This document shows positions 5,949 through 40,606 of a stretch of 42,396 nucleotides of DNA, piece after piece. Source of the stretch: Clostridia bacterium. Lineage in GTDB: Bacteria > Bacillota > Clostridia > Oscillospirales > CAG-272. The DNA lies in NCBI GenBank assembly GCA_017483305.1, contig JAFULC010000037.1, forward strand, positions 1 through 42,396, read 5' to 3'. Made by a program: the position numbers and the translations under genes. Every line of letters starts with the position of its first letter. Position 1 is the stretch's first letter. The notes under the pieces are model-generated. The model saw only the letters and a program-made list of their open reading frames with translations. It did not search any database and was not told where the DNA came from.

Positions 5949-6995
5949 ATGAAGAATTCGAGATCTGAGAGCTACGCTGCGGCGGGCGTTGATATTACCG
6001 CCGGTTACAAGGCGGTCGAGCTGATGAAAAAGCACATCGCTCGTACGAAAAACGAGGGTTGCCTTGACGACGTTGGAGGATTTGGAGGCTGCTTCGGTCT
6101 TCCTATGGGATTAGAGGAGCCTGTGCTTGTTTCGGGCACTGACGGCTGCGGAACTAAGGTGAAGATGGCAATTCTGATGGACAAGCACGATACTATCGGA
6201 ATCGATGCGGTGGCTATGTGCGTAAACGATATTATCTGTTGCGGAGCGAAGCCTCTCTTTTTCCTTGATTATATTGCTTGCGGAAAGAATATTCCCGAGA
6301 AGATCGCCGCTATCGTTGGCGGTGTTGCCGAGGGTTGCGTTCAGTCGGGCGCGGCGCTTATCGGAGGAGAAACTGCCGAGCATCCCGGTCTGATGCCTGT
6401 GGATGATTACGATCTTGCCGGCTTTGCGGTCGGTATAGTTGACAAGAAGAAGATTCTTGACAACAAGAGGATGGCCGAGGGTGATGTTGTGATCGCGCTT
6501 GCATCGAGCGGCGTTCATTCCAACGGATTTTCGCTTTGCCGCAAGGTGTTTGATATTGATAACAATCCAGATTCGCTTTACGCTTCTTGTGAGTCGCTTG
6601 GTGGAAAAAGCATTGCGGAGACCTTGCTCACTCCCACAAGAATATACGTAAAGAGTATACTTGCACTTCTTGAAAAGGTTGACGTTAAGGGCATTTCGCA
6701 CATTACGGGCGGCGGATTTTACGAAAATATTCCGAGAAGTATTCCCGACGGTCTTTGCGCACGCATTAATAAAGCGGACGTGAAGATTTTGCCGATCTTC
6801 GATCTGATAGCAAAGACGGGCAATATTCCCGAGCGCGATATGTTCAACACCTACAATATGGGTGTTGGTATGAGCGTTGTCGTTCCTGCCTCCGAGATCG
6901 AGGCGGCGCTTGAGATCCTTCGTGCGAATGGCGAGGACGCCTACGTGATCGGTGAGATCGTAAAATCTGAAAACGAAAAGATAGAGATAATCTGA
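5949..6995 (+). CDS. purM: PurM, phosphoribosylformylglycinamidine cyclo-ligase (AIR synthetase)
   Basis: Closes the imidazole ring of FGAM to AIR using ATP. The N-terminus reads SYAAAGVDITAGYKAVELMK, a close match to the family start. VSGTDGCGTKVKMA, the acidic stretch VAMCVNDIICCGAKPLFFLDYIA, GGETAEHPG and GISHITGGGFYENIPR follow in order. Length is 348 aa, normal. The reaction follows PurL in the pathway. Only one base separates its stop from the start of the formate/nitrite-type channel gene, so the two are translationally coupled. Confidence 0.96.
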   Translation: MKNSRSESYAAAGVDITAGYKAVELMKKHIARTKNEGCLDDVGGFGGCFGLPMGLEEPVLVSGTDGCGTKVKMAILMDKHDTIGIDAVAMCVNDIICCGAKPLFFLDYIACGKNIPEKIAAIVGGVAEGCVQSGAALIGGETAEHPGLMPVDDYDLAGFAVGIVDKKKILDNKRMAEGDVVIALASSGVHSNGFSLCRKVFDIDNNPDSLYASCESLGGKSIAETLLTPTRIYVKSILALLEKVDVKGISHITGGGFYENIPRSIPDGLCARINKADVKILPIFDLIAKTGNIPERDMFNTYNMGVGMSVVVPASEIEAALEILRANGEDAYVIGEIVKSENEKIEII

Positions 6996-6996
6996 T

Positions 6997-7626
6997 ATGA
7001 AGATATTACAGAAGATCATTAACGGAGCTATGGCCGGCATTATGATCGCCATAGGCGGAAGCGTGTTCCTTGCTTGCTACGGAGACGGATCGGTTCTCGA
7101 CCGTGCTATCGGGGCGTTCTTCTTTGCGGTCGCTCTGCTTTGTATTTGCTACAAGGGATACTCGCTTTACACGGGAAAGATCGGATTCATTCCCGAAAAG
7201 CACGACGGCGATGCCTTTTCGGTGCTTTTGCTTGGACTTTTGGGAAATCTTATCGCAACAGTCGGTCTTGGCCTTGCCGTGAGATACGCTATTCCAAATG
7301 TTTGCTCTGTTGCAGAGGCCATTTGCGCGTCGAAGCTGACACAGTCTTTTGGGCAGACCTTGATTCGCGGAATCTTTTGCGGAATTCTTATGTATTTGGC
7401 GGTGATCATTTATCGCGACAAAAAAACCGTTGTGGGAATTTTGTTCTGCGTGCCCGTGTTTATTCTTGCGGGCTTTGAGCACTCGATCGCGAATATGTTT
7501 TACTTTGCAACGGCGGCAAGCTTTTCGCTTGATACGGTGATATATATTCTTGTTGTCGTGCTTGGAAATACGATCGGCGGTATGCTGTTGCCTCTGCTTG
7601 CTATGGTCAAGCCCAAGCAGGCGTGA
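6997..7626 (+). CDS. Formate/nitrite transporter (FNT) family channel, short form
   Basis: A hydrophobic 209-aa protein with about six membrane helices. The C-terminal half carries FNT hallmarks: LIRGIFCGILMYLAVI, then GFEHSIANMFYFA with the central pore His, then VVVLGNTIGGMLLPLL. FNT proteins pass formate, nitrite or hydrosulfide as pentamers. It is shorter than FocA (about 280 aa), mainly in the N-terminal region and loops. It starts one base after purM and precedes purN. Since fhs closes the same block, formate is the likeliest substrate: imported formate would be activated to 10-formyl-THF for PurN and AICAR formyltransferase. That link is inference; the family call is firm. Confidence 0.85.
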   Translation: MKILQKIINGAMAGIMIAIGGSVFLACYGDGSVLDRAIGAFFFAVALLCICYKGYSLYTGKIGFIPEKHDGDAFSVLLLGLLGNLIATVGLGLAVRYAIPNVCSVAEAICASKLTQSFGQTLIRGIFCGILMYLAVIIYRDKKTVVGILFCVPVFILAGFEHSIANMFYFATAASFSLDTVIYILVVVLGNTIGGMLLPLLAMVKPKQA

Positions 7627-36188: not shown

Positions 36189-37082
36189 TTAATTCAGAAA
36201 ATCTATACACTCGCCTTGCGTCATAGGGAAGGATTTGGGTGTTGAGCCGTTGAGGTCAGCGTTTTTCATTTTGACACCGCGCAGCCTTCGGCAGGAGTAG
36301 GTGGTGAAATAATAGGTCAGGTCTTCAGTATCCATGCAGGCGGTATATTCGGTGCGAAGCTTTCTTTCATCTGCCTGAAAGAGCCCTGCGGGCTGATTGA
36401 CGGTGCTCATGATGTGGAAAAAGCGAGATATCGACTCTGCTTTGTCGGCTGAGGAGGCGGTGTGGTCTTTGGCGTTTATTGCTCTGACGAAGCGAGAGCT
36501 TGAGGAGAGATCGCCGAGCATAGGTCTGCCGCGCTCCTCGAAAATATAGCATTGGGTTGGGAATTCGGGGGCGTTGGTGAGAACTCCGTAGGGGTTGTCG
36601 AAGATTTTGAGCCCATCTTTAGTCGATTCGACGGTGAAGGAGCTTGTTTTGTCTCCCACGAGCCAATGGAGAGGGCTTGCCGGCAGGTCACGTGAGAAGC
36701 TTTCGGGGGTTATATTGGCGTTCTTGAGGGCTTTTTTTGCTTCACTTGCGCTATCGAAGCTACAGAGCAGCCACGGTATGAGCTCGAAGGATGCGAGGTT
36801 TATCGCGTCGGCTTTTTTGTCGTGATAGGCGGCAAGCTCGGGAAAGCGAAGGGCGGCTACACAAAGTCCGTGCTCATTTATGGCGTCATAGTAGAGGGGA
36901 TTGTTGTCGACAACAAGCGCCGTGCCGATGATGGCGGGGTGCTTGGCTATCTCGCCTTCGTGCAGGAAGCGGAAGGGAAATTGACGTGGGGTTATGACGA
37001 CATTTTCGCCGCGCGAGCCTTCAACGTCGAGCGTTCTGCCGAAAAGGTGGATTTTTGAGGTGTCGTTTATTGCGGTACACAT
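36189..37082 (-). CDS. Choloylglycine hydrolase family protein (bile salt hydrolase/penicillin V acylase-like)
   Basis: An Ntn-hydrolase of linear amides such as conjugated bile salts. It has 297 aa, a little shorter than typical (315-330). Cys2 after Met is the nucleophile. Arg16 and Asp19 (FGRTLD), Asn69 (AINEHGL), Asn170 (YGVLTNAPEF) and Arg197 (SSRFVRA) match the catalytic set of the family. There is no signal peptide. The reverse-strand ribosome site AAAGGAAG precedes ATG 37082. It runs divergently from the MerR-like gene and may share its control region. Whether it acts on bile salts, N-acyl amides or penicillin V cannot be told from sequence; bile salts would fit a gut host. Confidence 0.85.
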   Translation of the reverse strand: MCTAINDTSKIHLFGRTLDVEGSRGENVVITPRQFPFRFLHEGEIAKHPAIIGTALVVDNNPLYYDAINEHGLCVAALRFPELAAYHDKKADAINLASFELIPWLLCSFDSASEAKKALKNANITPESFSRDLPASPLHWLVGDKTSSFTVESTKDGLKIFDNPYGVLTNAPEFPTQCYIFEERGRPMLGDLSSSSRFVRAINAKDHTASSADKAESISRFFHIMSTVNQPAGLFQADERKLRTEYTACMDTEDLTYYFTTYSCRRLRGVKMKNADLNGSTPKSFPMTQGECIDFLN

Positions 37083-37251: not shown

Positions 37252-37282
37252 TTGACTTTTACCTTACGTAAAAAGATATAAT
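37252..37282 (+). promoter_or_regulatory. MerR-type promoter with 19-base spacer and central dyad
   Basis: TTGACT 37252-37257 and TATAAT 37277-37282 are 19 bases apart, the over-long spacing that MerR-family activators correct by twisting DNA. Inside the spacer is TTTTAC-N5-GTAAAA (37257-37273), a fitting operator. The next gene has a MerR DNA-binding domain, so self-control is likely. Another TATAAT at 37213-37218 with TTGTTT 37190-37195 could be a second promoter. Confidence 0.65.
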
Positions 37283-37304
37283 CTTTGAAAAAGGAGGTAC
37301 TTTG

Positions 37305-38798
37305 ATGAAGATCAAAGCTGTTTGTGATAAAACGGGACTCACCGACAGAACGATACGCTATTACATTGAGGAGGGGCTGATATCCCCTTCGTTTACCGAA
37401 AATTATCTCGGGAGAAAATCCTTTGATTTTTCCGATGACGATATATCCGAGCTTTGCGATATTTCCGTGCTCAGAAATTTTGATTTTTCGATTGAGGAGA
37501 TAAGGCAGCTTCTTCGCTCCCCCGAAAGCAGTCTTGACATAATCAAGGCGGTCAAGGAGAGAGTTGGAGGCGAGCTTCTTATGAATCAAAAAAAGCTCTC
37601 CGCGCTCTCATCGTTGGACGACCAGACGGTATACACCGTCTCAGAGCTTGCAAGGGAGCTTTTAAGACCCGATGAGATCACTCCGACGAAGGATGAGCCC
37701 GAGGCTAATATCTGGCGCAGGGCTGCTTTGATGATAAAGGAGGGAGGACTCTTTCTTGCCGTCTGGCTTCCGATCGTTATAAGCGCCTGTATTATTTTGA
37801 TTGAATTTATCATATATGATCATCCGATAGCTGCTCCGATTTTTCTCGTTGTTTCCTTGATTTCGACTCTGCCGTCGATCTTGAGTATATTCTCGTCCAG
37901 GATAAGGCTTTTCAGGAACAAGGCGGCGTCAAGGGCTCTGTTCTTCGTTTGTCTTGCCTGCATACCGATAAGCGTTTTTTCATCGCTGTCGGCGGTATAC
38001 GAGTGCGAGCATAGCTGGGTCACGATCGCCGTGGAGGCCGAGGTGAGCTGCGCGCAGGAGGGGCGGATAGTCAAGCAGTGTGACGTTTGCCGTGACGTAG
38101 TGGTTGAGATGCAGGGGAAATTGCCTCATACCGTCGTCATCGACCGTGAGGTTGAGGCGAGCTGCAGCTCTGAGGGCTTGAGCGTGGGCGAGCATTGCTC
38201 GGTCTGTCAAACGGTGCTTGTCAAGCAAGAGGTGATACCGAAGAAGGATCACGCTTACGTTAAAAGCTACGTTGAGCCGACCTGCGACAAGGAGGGATAC
38301 GTTCTTTTGACCTGCGCTTGTGGATATAGCTGCAAGGACACCGTCATACCTGCGACCGAGAGGCACGATTTCAAGAAGAACGGGAATTATGGATATATTT
38401 GCTCATATTGCTCTCTTGAGGTCTGCGAGCACGGATATGCCAGCAGATTAAATTGGGGACCGATAAGATATTATATCACGGGAAGGGCCGACAGTGTCAA
38501 TGAGCAAGAAAGAACGCTTGTGATATATGGCAGCGGGGAAATGCCCGAGCCCTCGTATCCGTCGTTTCATCCCTGGCGCACCAGTATCTACGTTGAGGAG
38601 ATAAAAACGGTGGTTATATGCGAGGGGGTTACATCGATCGCATCGGGAGCGTTCTCGGGCAGCATGGAAGGGGATGATTTCTTTGGAAATCCCTTTCACT
38701 CTGTGGAAAGCTTTATTATAAAAGGCACAACACTGACTGTAGATCCCGACAGTCCCGATATCAGCGGTATCGAATGTGAAATTACATACGAGCGATAG
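37305..38798 (+). CDS. Transmembrane MerR-type regulator with external Cys repeats and BspA-like end
   Basis: 497 aa. Residues 1-70 are a MerR winged helix (VCDKTGLTDRTIRYYIEEGLI, then LRNFDFSIEEIRQLL). A short coiled region precedes three membrane helices at about 149-170, 177-198 and 211-231. The loop between helices 2 and 3 is basic (RIRLFRNKAASR), so by the positive-inside rule the C-terminus is outside. From 236 there are three to four repeats of about 45 residues with His, Cys-x-x-x-Gly and paired Cys (SCAQEG..CDVC, SCSSEG..CSVC, TCDKEG..CACG, CSYC). The last 100 residues resemble BspA-type leucine-rich repeats (TLVIYGSGEM, VVICEGVTSIASGAF). ATG 37305 follows AAAGGAGG. It looks like a one-component sensor carrying signals from outside to DNA; I know no described protein of this layout. 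Confidence 0.75.
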   Translation: MKIKAVCDKTGLTDRTIRYYIEEGLISPSFTENYLGRKSFDFSDDDISELCDISVLRNFDFSIEEIRQLLRSPESSLDIIKAVKERVGGELLMNQKKLSALSSLDDQTVYTVSELARELLRPDEITPTKDEPEANIWRRAALMIKEGGLFLAVWLPIVISACIILIEFIIYDHPIAAPIFLVVSLISTLPSILSIFSSRIRLFRNKAASRALFFVCLACIPISVFSSLSAVYECEHSWVTIAVEAEVSCAQEGRIVKQCDVCRDVVVEMQGKLPHTVVIDREVEASCSSEGLSVGEHCSVCQTVLVKQEVIPKKDHAYVKSYVEPTCDKEGYVLLTCACGYSCKDTVIPATERHDFKKNGNYGYICSYCSLEVCEHGYASRLNWGPIRYYITGRADSVNEQERTLVIYGSGEMPEPSYPSFHPWRTSIYVEEIKTVVICEGVTSIASGAFSGSMEGDDFFGNPFHSVESFIIKGTTLTVDPDSPDISGIECEITYER

Positions 38799-38841
38799 GT
38801 CTTAAAAAGTATCTTCAAAAACAAAGAAAGGCAATTTATCT

Positions 38842-40140
38842 ATGAAAAAGCTTACGTTGATCGTTACGATCTCAATTTTGTCACTTTTTATGCTTTTTAC
38901 ATCCTGCGGAAATGCCGACAATCAGGATGGAAATAATGAAAATAACAGCTCTGAAACGACTCTTGAGGGCGACGTCACCACCGACACTCACGTGCATAAG
39001 TACGGAGAGTGGGTCACGGTGAGTGAGCCTACCTGTAAGGAGAGCGGCACGAAGGAGCGCACCTGCTCTTGCGGAAGCAAGGAGACCGAGGACATACCCA
39101 CCGTTGCGCACAAATACGTGAACAACGTTTGCAGCATGTGCAAGCAGAGCAATCCTGACGCATTTGTTCCCGATTATTCCGAGGGCGAGGCTAACGTTGT
39201 CGGAGGTGATAGCGGACTTTCCCGTTACGTGTCGCAGGGTAGCTATCTCTATTTTTCTGCGAGCGGTAATACTATAGACAAGATGAAGATCAATAAATCC
39301 GGCGTTCAGACTGTGTATCAGGTGTCGGCGGGTCGGATAATGAACATAAACGTTTTGGGAGATTGGGTATATTTTTATTGCGAGGGCTCTACGGTCGGAA
39401 AATCCTACATTGCGAGAGTCAGGACAGATGGCTCTGGCTTTGAAAAGATAGTCAGCTCGGTCGCCGTTTGGGAAATGATCGTGGCGAAGGATACGGTATA
39501 TTATACAACCTTCCCCACTGACGGAGAATACAAGGATTTTGCCAAGGACGTTATGCCGCTGTATTGCGTGTCGGTCAACGGCGGAACGCCCAAGCAGATC
39601 CACGATGGTGCGGTTGGTGAATTGGTTGCTGACGATAAGTTCATATATTTTATTCACGATAATGAGGACGGAGATCCGAGTATCAGAAGAATCAAGCACG
39701 GTAACACGAGCAGCGACGTTTTGGTTGAAAACAAAGAAATTTACAATCTTGCGATTGAGGGCTCTAAGCTGTATTTCTTCGAGCATAACAAGTATGATGA
39801 TATTTATTCGTTAGCCTCTGTTGCGACGAACGGCGGAGGATATACTGTATTCGGCAAGGTGATGCAATATTCGGATTCAATGTGCGTTGTTGGCAACAAG
39901 GTTTATTATCTGGGCGGATTGTACCGTGAAAACGAGTTTTTGGAAAGCGCAGGGCTTGTTGAATACAACGTTTCGACGAAGACTGACAGAATAGCGAGGG
40001 AGGACTACGAGCTTATAGATTTTCAGTCTGCGGGAAATCTTTTGATTTTTGAAAATTACGACTACGAAGCCGAAAGGCTTGACTCGTTGACGATCTATTT
40101 TACTGACAAGAACGTCGTTAAAACATTGAAGATATCGTAA
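38842..40140 (+). CDS. Lipoprotein with one Cys repeat and a DUF5050-like beta-propeller
   Basis: 432 aa. A lipoprotein signal (LSLFMLFTSC, lipidated Cys22) is followed by a Ser/Thr/Asn linker. Next comes a His/Cys repeat (HKYGEWVTVSEPTC...CSCG...VCSMC) of the same type as in the MerR-like protein just upstream. The rest (about 110-432) shows six or so repeated beta strands (LYFSASGNTIDKMK, VYFYCEG, VYYTTFP, IYFIHDN, LYFFEHN, VYYLGGL) as in DUF5050/LRP-like propellers. It starts 43 bp after the regulator with GAAAGG before the ATG, so they are co-transcribed. The shared repeat hints that the two proteins contact each other outside the membrane; that is inference. Confidence 0.75.
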   Translation: MKKLTLIVTISILSLFMLFTSCGNADNQDGNNENNSSETTLEGDVTTDTHVHKYGEWVTVSEPTCKESGTKERTCSCGSKETEDIPTVAHKYVNNVCSMCKQSNPDAFVPDYSEGEANVVGGDSGLSRYVSQGSYLYFSASGNTIDKMKINKSGVQTVYQVSAGRIMNINVLGDWVYFYCEGSTVGKSYIARVRTDGSGFEKIVSSVAVWEMIVAKDTVYYTTFPTDGEYKDFAKDVMPLYCVSVNGGTPKQIHDGAVGELVADDKFIYFIHDNEDGDPSIRRIKHGNTSSDVLVENKEIYNLAIEGSKLYFFEHNKYDDIYSLASVATNGGGYTVFGKVMQYSDSMCVVGNKVYYLGGLYRENEFLESAGLVEYNVSTKTDRIAREDYELIDFQSAGNLLIFENYDYEAERLDSLTIYFTDKNVVKTLKIS

Positions 40141-40156
40141 AAGAGAAGAGGACATC

Positions 40157-40606
40157 ATGGCATACCAATATCCTTATGATTACGAAGAAAAAGAGTACAA
40201 GGCTCCCAAGCTGCCAACAGACAGAAAAATGTGGAAGTTTATGGTGTTTAGTATTTTGACTCTTGGCTTTTACAGCTTCGCGTTCTTTATTCCACTTTCG
40301 TTTGATCTCGACAAAATCGCGCCCAAAAGAGACGGTTCGAGAACGATGAATTATATTTTCGCATACATTCTAGCCTATTTTACCTTTACAATCGTCCTCG
40401 ACATATGGATGTATCAGATCACACAGCGTATAGAGGAGGCGCTCAATGAGCGCAATATCAATTATGACTTTGGAATCAGGGATTTCTGGGCGTGGTATTT
40501 CTTCGGGTCCTTTATTCTTGTCGGGCAGTTCGTCTTTTTCCATAAGCTTTGCAAGGCTATGAACTTTCTTTGCGAGGATTATAATATTGCTCAGGAGGCA
40601 AAATAA
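40157..40606 (+). CDS. DUF4234-like small membrane protein
   Basis: 149 aa with about three membrane segments. A Tyr/Lys-rich cytosolic start (YQYPYDYEEKEYKAPK) is followed by MWKFMVFSILTLGFYSFAFF, DLDKIAPKRDGSRTMNY and a pair of later helices, with LCKAMNFLCEDYN near the end. The pattern of an ILTLGFY helix followed by a charged DLDKIAP loop fits DUF4234 proteins, which have no known role. It lies 16 bp after the lipoprotein gene and probably completes the same operon. The name is from pattern memory, so moderate confidence. Confidence 0.6.
   Translation: MAYQYPYDYEEKEYKAPKLPTDRKMWKFMVFSILTLGFYSFAFFIPLSFDLDKIAPKRDGSRTMNYIFAYILAYFTFTIVLDIWMYQITQRIEEALNERNINYDFGIRDFWAWYFFGSFILVGQFVFFHKLCKAMNFLCEDYNIAQEAK

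Follow-up and report, generated by a model that had tools for sequence, protein, structure and literature searches.

A predicted transmembrane MerR receptor, its candidate operator and its lipoprotein partner in gut Clostridia

Regulators of the MerR family are textbook soluble switches whose action is to twist a promoter spacer of excessive length, and the proteins dimerise via an antiparallel coiled coil. They bind palindromes within 19–20-bp promoter spacers (PMC1526738, PMC11049809), and such a palindrome is a mark of the family (PMC1526738). Membrane-bound transcription regulators have been surveyed as a class covering more than 100 kinds of DNA-binding domain (PMC10269533, main text); MerR is not named in that main text, the tables of the survey, which possibly list it, lying outside the material used here. 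The present work concerns a three-gene run in a 42,396-nucleotide stretch of contig JAFULC010000037.1 from a Clostridia bacterium (assembly GCA_017483305.1), the whole of which we call the window, and in particular its first gene, whose product combines a MerR helix-turn-helix (HTH) with predicted membrane helices and an outer part. Computation establishes the architecture, together with the predicted topology, the pairing of genes, the operator and its co-occurrence with the receptor, and we consider it quite probable that the protein acts as a transmembrane one-component receptor that uses MerR as its output domain, regulates its own operon and has surface proteins as its output. The initial annotation had termed the module undescribed, which stands for the MerR form and falls for the kind, transmembrane transcription regulators being already known as a surveyed class (PMC10269533, main text); the novelty lies in the MerR version. 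A literature search over open-licence papers (partly titles and starts of abstracts, supplements excluded) found no membrane MerR of this kind.

Domains and topology of the receptor and its relatives

Three + strand genes within 37305–40606, taken from the open reading frame (ORF) listing, encode a MerR-membrane protein of 497 amino acids (aa), a 432-aa lipoprotein and a 149-aa DUF4234 protein, with intergenic gaps of 43 and 16 nt. The receptor gene (37305..38798, + strand, 497 aa from ATG; ORF, Pfam and AlphaFold2 model) follows a ribosome-binding site, AGGAGG, read at 37292..37297 (+), and an alternative TTG start is possible at 37302. Like members of the MerR family, its product carries an N-terminal MerR HTH (residues 1–72, 37305..37520), which Pfam assigns to MerR_1 (E 1.4e-13, 51.2 bits against a cut-off of 21.6) and for which Foldseek, applied to the N-terminal part, matched MerR proteins (CadR, 6jni). 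A long helix in the model (residues 73–102, 37521..37610) lies at the position of the MerR dimer coiled coil and would mediate dimerisation; it is followed by three membrane helices predicted from hydropathy and model within residues 136–228 (37710..37988), their inner loop, from helix 2 to helix 3, being basic, and then, from sequence reading and model, by outer His/Cys beta modules (about residues 229–375, 37989..38429, boundary approximate) and a BspA-like cap (about residues 376–497, 38430..38795). The AlphaFold2 model has a mean predicted local distance difference test score (pLDDT) of 86.3 and a predicted template-modelling score of 0.44, with linker 124–133 below a pLDDT of 50, and comprises the MerR-like HTH, helix 73–102, membrane-part helices 136–170, 178–195 and 206–228, and thereafter nearly all beta strands. 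Foldseek gave no convincing match for the outer part. The label BspA-like refers to what we take to be a cap motif; alongside it, Pfam finds LRR_5 matches in relatives, and no leucine-rich repeat (LRR) match in the window protein.

Helices 2 and 3 are joined by a basic loop (SSRIRLFRNKAASR), helices 1 and 2 by a non-basic one (YDHPIAAP), so that the His/Cys modules are predicted to face outside. Across the family, loop 2 is mostly richer in K/R than loop 1 by a simple hydropathy rule, which calls four helices in a few proteins. The receptor thus unites, by prediction, a DNA-binding domain and a transmembrane region in one protein, which is how transmembrane transcription regulators are defined in the main text of PMC10269533. 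In NCBIfam it reaches no equivalog cut-off, the best of the metal-sensing MerR models being CueR (37.7 bits against 147.4). As can be seen, the layout proposed in the initial annotation (MerR, three helices, His/Cys modules and BspA-like end, then a lipoprotein with a propeller and a DUF4234 protein) is confirmed by Pfam, models and sequence reading, and its proposal of a membrane-spanning MerR with an outside part able to act directly on DNA gains support at the level of prediction.

A family scan with the MerR-plus-membrane part as query gave 51 loci, from which six distant MerR matches (L098–L103) were dropped before counting, leaving 45 (L053–L097) that make 46 with the window. In another comparison, with 98 related genomes, 72 matched somewhere, mostly through His/Cys modules alone; long relatives are found in G023 (51%) and G011 (41%), with longer forms in G013 and G048. 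Assembly error, against which the initial annotation had wanted homologues checked, and chance fusion are ruled out, because the MerR-membrane join recurs in 44 of the 45 related loci, all but L092, where no helix is predicted. Ectodomain classes, assigned by hand from locus listings and Pfam results, comprise 11 His/Cys receptors with three helices, two one-helix LRR receptors (L064, L065), 31 receptors of class b, with an unrelated ectodomain of about 165 aa, and two lacking an ectodomain (L092, L097) that belong to neither class. The His/Cys and LRR receptors form one supported set of 13, window included (tree support 100/99), and the LRR form is nested inside it (99/88), which argues that membrane and outer parts have been exchanged beneath an unchanging MerR head, the pattern that a receptor should show. 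Pfam gave no match for the class-b ectodomain in five scanned proteins. The ratio of nonsynonymous to synonymous substitution rates in the ectodomain is 0.14 for L057/L058 and 0.10 for one class-b pair.

The premise of the initial annotation that MerR proteins are normally soluble carries little weight in this genome: of its three MerR_1 genes, the one on contig C60 looks soluble, while the one on contig C48 (L001, 1492–2220) reads as another likely membrane MerR, with HTH, hydrophobic hairpin and zinc-ribbon-like end. Further MerRs with membrane parts were noted, namely proteins some 300 aa long that have two to four predicted helices and 19-bp-spaced promoters in front (L040, L041, L043, L044) and a tandem array of three membrane MerR genes, each of about 250 aa, flanked by genes for probably secreted proteins (L048, 4506–6825). 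At L056 (about 6969–7010) the MerR head has an early frameshift, from sequencing error or decay, and the promoter and lipoprotein genes look intact.

The operator and its distribution

In front of the receptor gene stands a MerR-type promoter/operator (37252..37282, + strand) with −35 TTGACT (37252–37257), a 19-bp spacer (37258–37276), −10 TATAAT (37277–37282) and the dyad TTTTACCTTACGTAAAA (37257–37273), and thus with the spacer palindrome taken as a family mark in PMC1526738. The pattern matches once in the window and not at all in 100 shuffles. At 44 of the 46 receptor genes, which were collected by protein patterns and not by promoter, we find TTGAC, a spacer of exactly 19 bp with the dyad TTTTAC-N5-GTAAAA or a close variant, and TA...T, mostly 51–56 nt before the start; the exceptions are L081 and L087, the latter being the second in a tandem pair whose first copy has the operator.

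Operator sites were then scanned genome-wide, allowing at most one mismatch, in 17 of the 47 genomes matching the receptor, namely those with the closest receptors, and in 24 genomes from among the 348 with no receptor match (of these 24, 17 have a completeness of 90% or more and a contamination of 5% or less). The receptor genomes yielded 44 matches, against 0 for the reversed pattern; six of these start TTGACATTGAC and are of another type, and the other 38 have the receptor type, 16 standing before receptors and 22 at other places (nine each in G013 and G245, two each in G023 and G048). Receptor-type operators occur in 15/17 receptor genomes (10/10 with His/Cys-LRR receptors, 5/7 with class b) and in 0/24 receptor-less genomes, where all three matches start TTGACATTGAC; two of the latter genomes (G206, G276) are congeners of the species that carry 10 sites each. 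An alternative is that another MerR binds the operator and the membrane protein merely lies behind it. Other MerR genes do have 19-bp promoters of their own, some of them similar in sequence (L040, L043), and the related TTGACATTGAC... type recurs, but the receptor-type operator was found in none of the 24 receptor-less genomes scanned, and the other two MerR_1 genes of the window genome have different upstream sequences; we regard this alternative as very improbable. As a separate observation, one 19-bp-spaced promoter starting TTGACATTGAC (L003, 1435–1465) precedes a MerR that reads as having no obvious membrane helices, and promoters of this type recur in G300, G334, G319, G011, G383, G206, G276 and G018.

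Genes following the operator sites were called by a simple ad hoc ORF rule. Nine of the 22 other sites are followed first by a lipoprotein gene (eight by rule, L202 by eye), compared with 40 lipoprotein genes among 516 in the neighbourhoods. In G013 and G245 the further sites, nine in each, lie mostly before envelope genes, and G245 has counterparts to eight of the nine in G013 (aligned DNA or the same first gene), a conservation that counts for little because the species are close. Candidate targets comprise BspA lipoproteins with His/Cys modules (C36 and C59, C16 by similarity), trypsin-like protease lipoproteins with His/Cys modules (G013 C14, G245 C4, G048 C67), a GH20 lipoprotein (C24), small zinc-ribbon membrane proteins (C41, C6, with a DUF4234 protein as third gene at C6), a YcxB-like protein and, at C53 and C9 (one mismatch), DUF1836, an NfeD-like protein (below the Pfam cut-off) and an SPFH protein. 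Of the matches to one His/Cys module, 7/7 in G013 and 4/6 in G245 belong to the receptor or to operator-linked genes. One G245 site precedes a relative of the window DUF4234 gene with one in-frame stop, and the promoter of the intact G013 copy is similar, its spacer being 18 bp; no gene was found close by the site at G023 C40. A membrane-anchored 191-aa protein also stands under a receptor-type operator (L058, 2737–3309; L209, 5348–5920), and has weak similarity to the class-b ectodomain (hhalign probability 22.9%, E 0.0009).

Several points weigh against reading the receptor as the master of this operator and of a surface regulon. The window genome has no second receptor-type operator, its regulon being one operon, and the seven scanned class-b genomes (G037, G334, G165, G383, G319, G391, G300) have no receptor-type site beyond the receptor's own, so that the receptor there seems to control itself alone. 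Two receptor genomes lack a site at one mismatch, G391 having one at two mismatches and G383 none in the stretch read. The other 30 receptor-matching genomes have more distant membrane MerRs, and some such MerRs have similar promoters. The loci are related, G013 and G245 being close species, so that counts are not independent and Fisher values calculated without regard to relatedness serve as a guide; operator absence rests on draft genomes; and a DUF1836 gene heads one target run, whose product likewise exceeds the MerR_1 cut-off and could itself bind the site.

The lipoprotein partner and neighbouring genes

The lipoprotein gene (38842..40140, + strand) encodes a lipobox with Cys22, one His/Cys module (about residues 50–100), within which His and Cys positions are conserved, and a 7-bladed propeller (DUF5050 by Pfam); the model of the lipoprotein (pLDDT 81.1) matches the solved 7-bladed propeller 3s25 with a template-modelling (TM) score of 0.76 over the target. 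A scan of the locus found no clear start or stop between the three genes, promoter-like sites (9 vs 8.2 shuffled) and terminator-like sites (6 vs 3.8) being at about the shuffled rate; a short terminator-like stem lies at 38859–38871, just within the lipoprotein gene. In 12 of the 13 His/Cys-LRR receptors a lipoprotein gene lies directly downstream on the same strand, 15–171 nt off (11 by lipobox rule, L053 by eye), against 0/30 for class b (L096, where the gene runs off the contig, left out; L061 and L086 have less than 400 nt after the gene, where a neighbour could be missed) and 18/192 for the neighbour background. Full-length His/Cys-propeller lipoproteins occur at seven places in 6/395 family genomes, all in receptor gene runs: six are immediate downstream neighbours of such a receptor, and the one in G180 follows one gene later; the remaining matches cover mostly the first ~115 residues, a few only the propeller part. 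The co-occurrence of receptor and lipoprotein, which the initial annotation had put forward as a check, is thereby borne out. The exception among the 13, L075 (7001–10498), is a receptor whose ectodomain is 89% identical over 937 residues to the L073 lipoprotein. It may be a natural fusion or a chimeric assembly, the latter because 685 nt are DNA-identical to L073 while the receptor parts are 60% alike.

Such pairing raises the possibility of a co-component sensor, in which the lipoprotein is an obligatory receptor part with the task of signal binding, like VtrC in its pair with VtrA, and operon position reflects a complex and not only regulation. There is precedent in PMC9214523, and the locus has its hallmark, a membrane transcription factor with an adjacent gene for an exported partner, though not the lipocalin fold of VtrC, the partner being a 7-bladed propeller. 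The near-strict pairing, L075 if a natural fusion, and L064 and L073, where the receptor ectodomain best matches its own lipoprotein, favour this explanation; yet the own pair is best in only 2/12 loci (the window ectodomain scores 30 bits to its own lipoprotein and 32 to that of L055), the partner type varies (propeller, BspA LRR, or no assigned fold), L075 may be chimeric, and the same operator on unlinked His/Cys lipoproteins fits an output better. We judge a co-component sensor possible, if somewhat unlikely. The same 2/12 count, together with modules widespread in related genomes, fails to support the shared repeat as the pair-specific contact surface that the initial annotation had suggested.

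A second explanation starts from the modules themselves: His and Cys residues would bind metal (zinc) or form disulphides, making the protein a metal-sensing MerR with its sensor moved outside. This agrees with the conservation of His and Cys positions within the module of the lipoprotein and with metal sensing being common among MerR proteins (PMC1526738). Modules of this kind, however, matched many open frames in related genomes (in the window genome only two other places), which fits a structural part, the outer part of L064/L065 is mostly LRR and other repeats with operator and partner kept, and no metal transporter was recognised among the target genes read (not every target being scanned); we hold metal or redox sensing to be quite unlikely.

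The third gene (40157..40606, + strand, 149 aa) encodes a DUF4234 membrane protein (Pfam, E 3.6e-13). Close relatives occur in 8/41 genomes, near a receptor in four (window, G013, G245, G383), on other contigs in two and without receptor in two; DUF4234 is not a fixed operon member. Divergently, starting about 170 nt from the operator, lies a bile-salt-hydrolase/penicillin-amidase family gene (36189–37082, − strand; CBAH, E 9.7e-69). A link to it was rejected, such a gene not being seen among the two upstream genes at the other 12 His/Cys-LRR receptors (starts read). A defence system was rejected likewise, one PADLOC model matching weakly over 26 residues within the HTH, as was a plasmid origin, for which a plasmid collection gave no match (phages were not searched).

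Proposed mechanism and comparison with known systems

The autoregulated receptor could work as follows, where we infer DNA binding by the receptor, the direction of regulation, dimerisation and the signal. The cytosolic MerR domain, presumably as a dimer, would sit on the dyad in the over-long 19-bp promoter spacer; the ectodomain would meet an outside signal, the three helices would relay a shape change to the MerR domain, and this would untwist the promoter as soluble MerRs do, whereupon receptor, His/Cys-propeller lipoprotein and DUF4234 protein would be produced together. In some relatives the same operator would serve a wider envelope gene set, including trypsin-like protease lipoproteins, and the picture would resemble an envelope-stress or surface-remodelling regulon, the protease and SPFH targets of relatives hinting at envelope stress as the sensed condition. 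The simplest account for the window species is that receptor output is the three-gene operon only. Given the operator data, the lipoprotein, named in the initial annotation as one thing that might be sensed outside, looks like a regulated output, either in place of a ligand role or in addition to one; it stands as a conserved partner and may feed back on the receptor. A broader idea, which we find rather unlikely and offer tentatively, is a gut-Clostridia class of MerR receptors with ectodomains swapped between branches and induced surface proteins that mirror the receptor module, sensor and output sharing an outside ligand or partner in a feedback loop across the membrane. Mirrored modules are indeed found, His/Cys and LRR on both receptor and output, and the anchored protein weakly like the sister-class ectodomain under the same operator. 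A membrane MerR family with a candidate operator, and a candidate regulon in two species, would make testable the question of how an outside signal becomes promoter distortion, and surface lipoproteins of uncultured gut bacteria would gain a regulator and candidate functions.

Among known systems, sigma-W and CssRS of Bacillus are envelope-stress regulons, which the targets in relatives resemble in their trypsin-like proteases, SPFH protein and small membrane proteins; here control would be by a one-component MerR with few targets, and in the window species only its own operon was found. With the soluble MerR proteins CueR, CadR, BmrR and MtaN the receptor shares the HTH, the long helix, the dyad in an over-long spacer and, as in some of them, the proposed autoregulation, but it has predicted membrane helices and an ectodomain in place of a soluble effector domain. 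ToxR/ToxS and VtrA/VtrC (PMC9214523) likewise pair a membrane transcription factor with a neighbouring gene for an exported partner, whereas the putative partner here is a propeller or LRR lipoprotein and not lipocalin-like. Finally, CadC, ToxR and TcpP (PMC10269533, main text) hold, like the receptor, a cytosolic DNA-binding domain, a membrane region and an outside part in one chain; the receptor differs from them in its MerR output domain and 19-bp-spacer operator instead of a ToxR-type HTH, in its three predicted helices, and in the His/Cys and BspA modules predicted outside.

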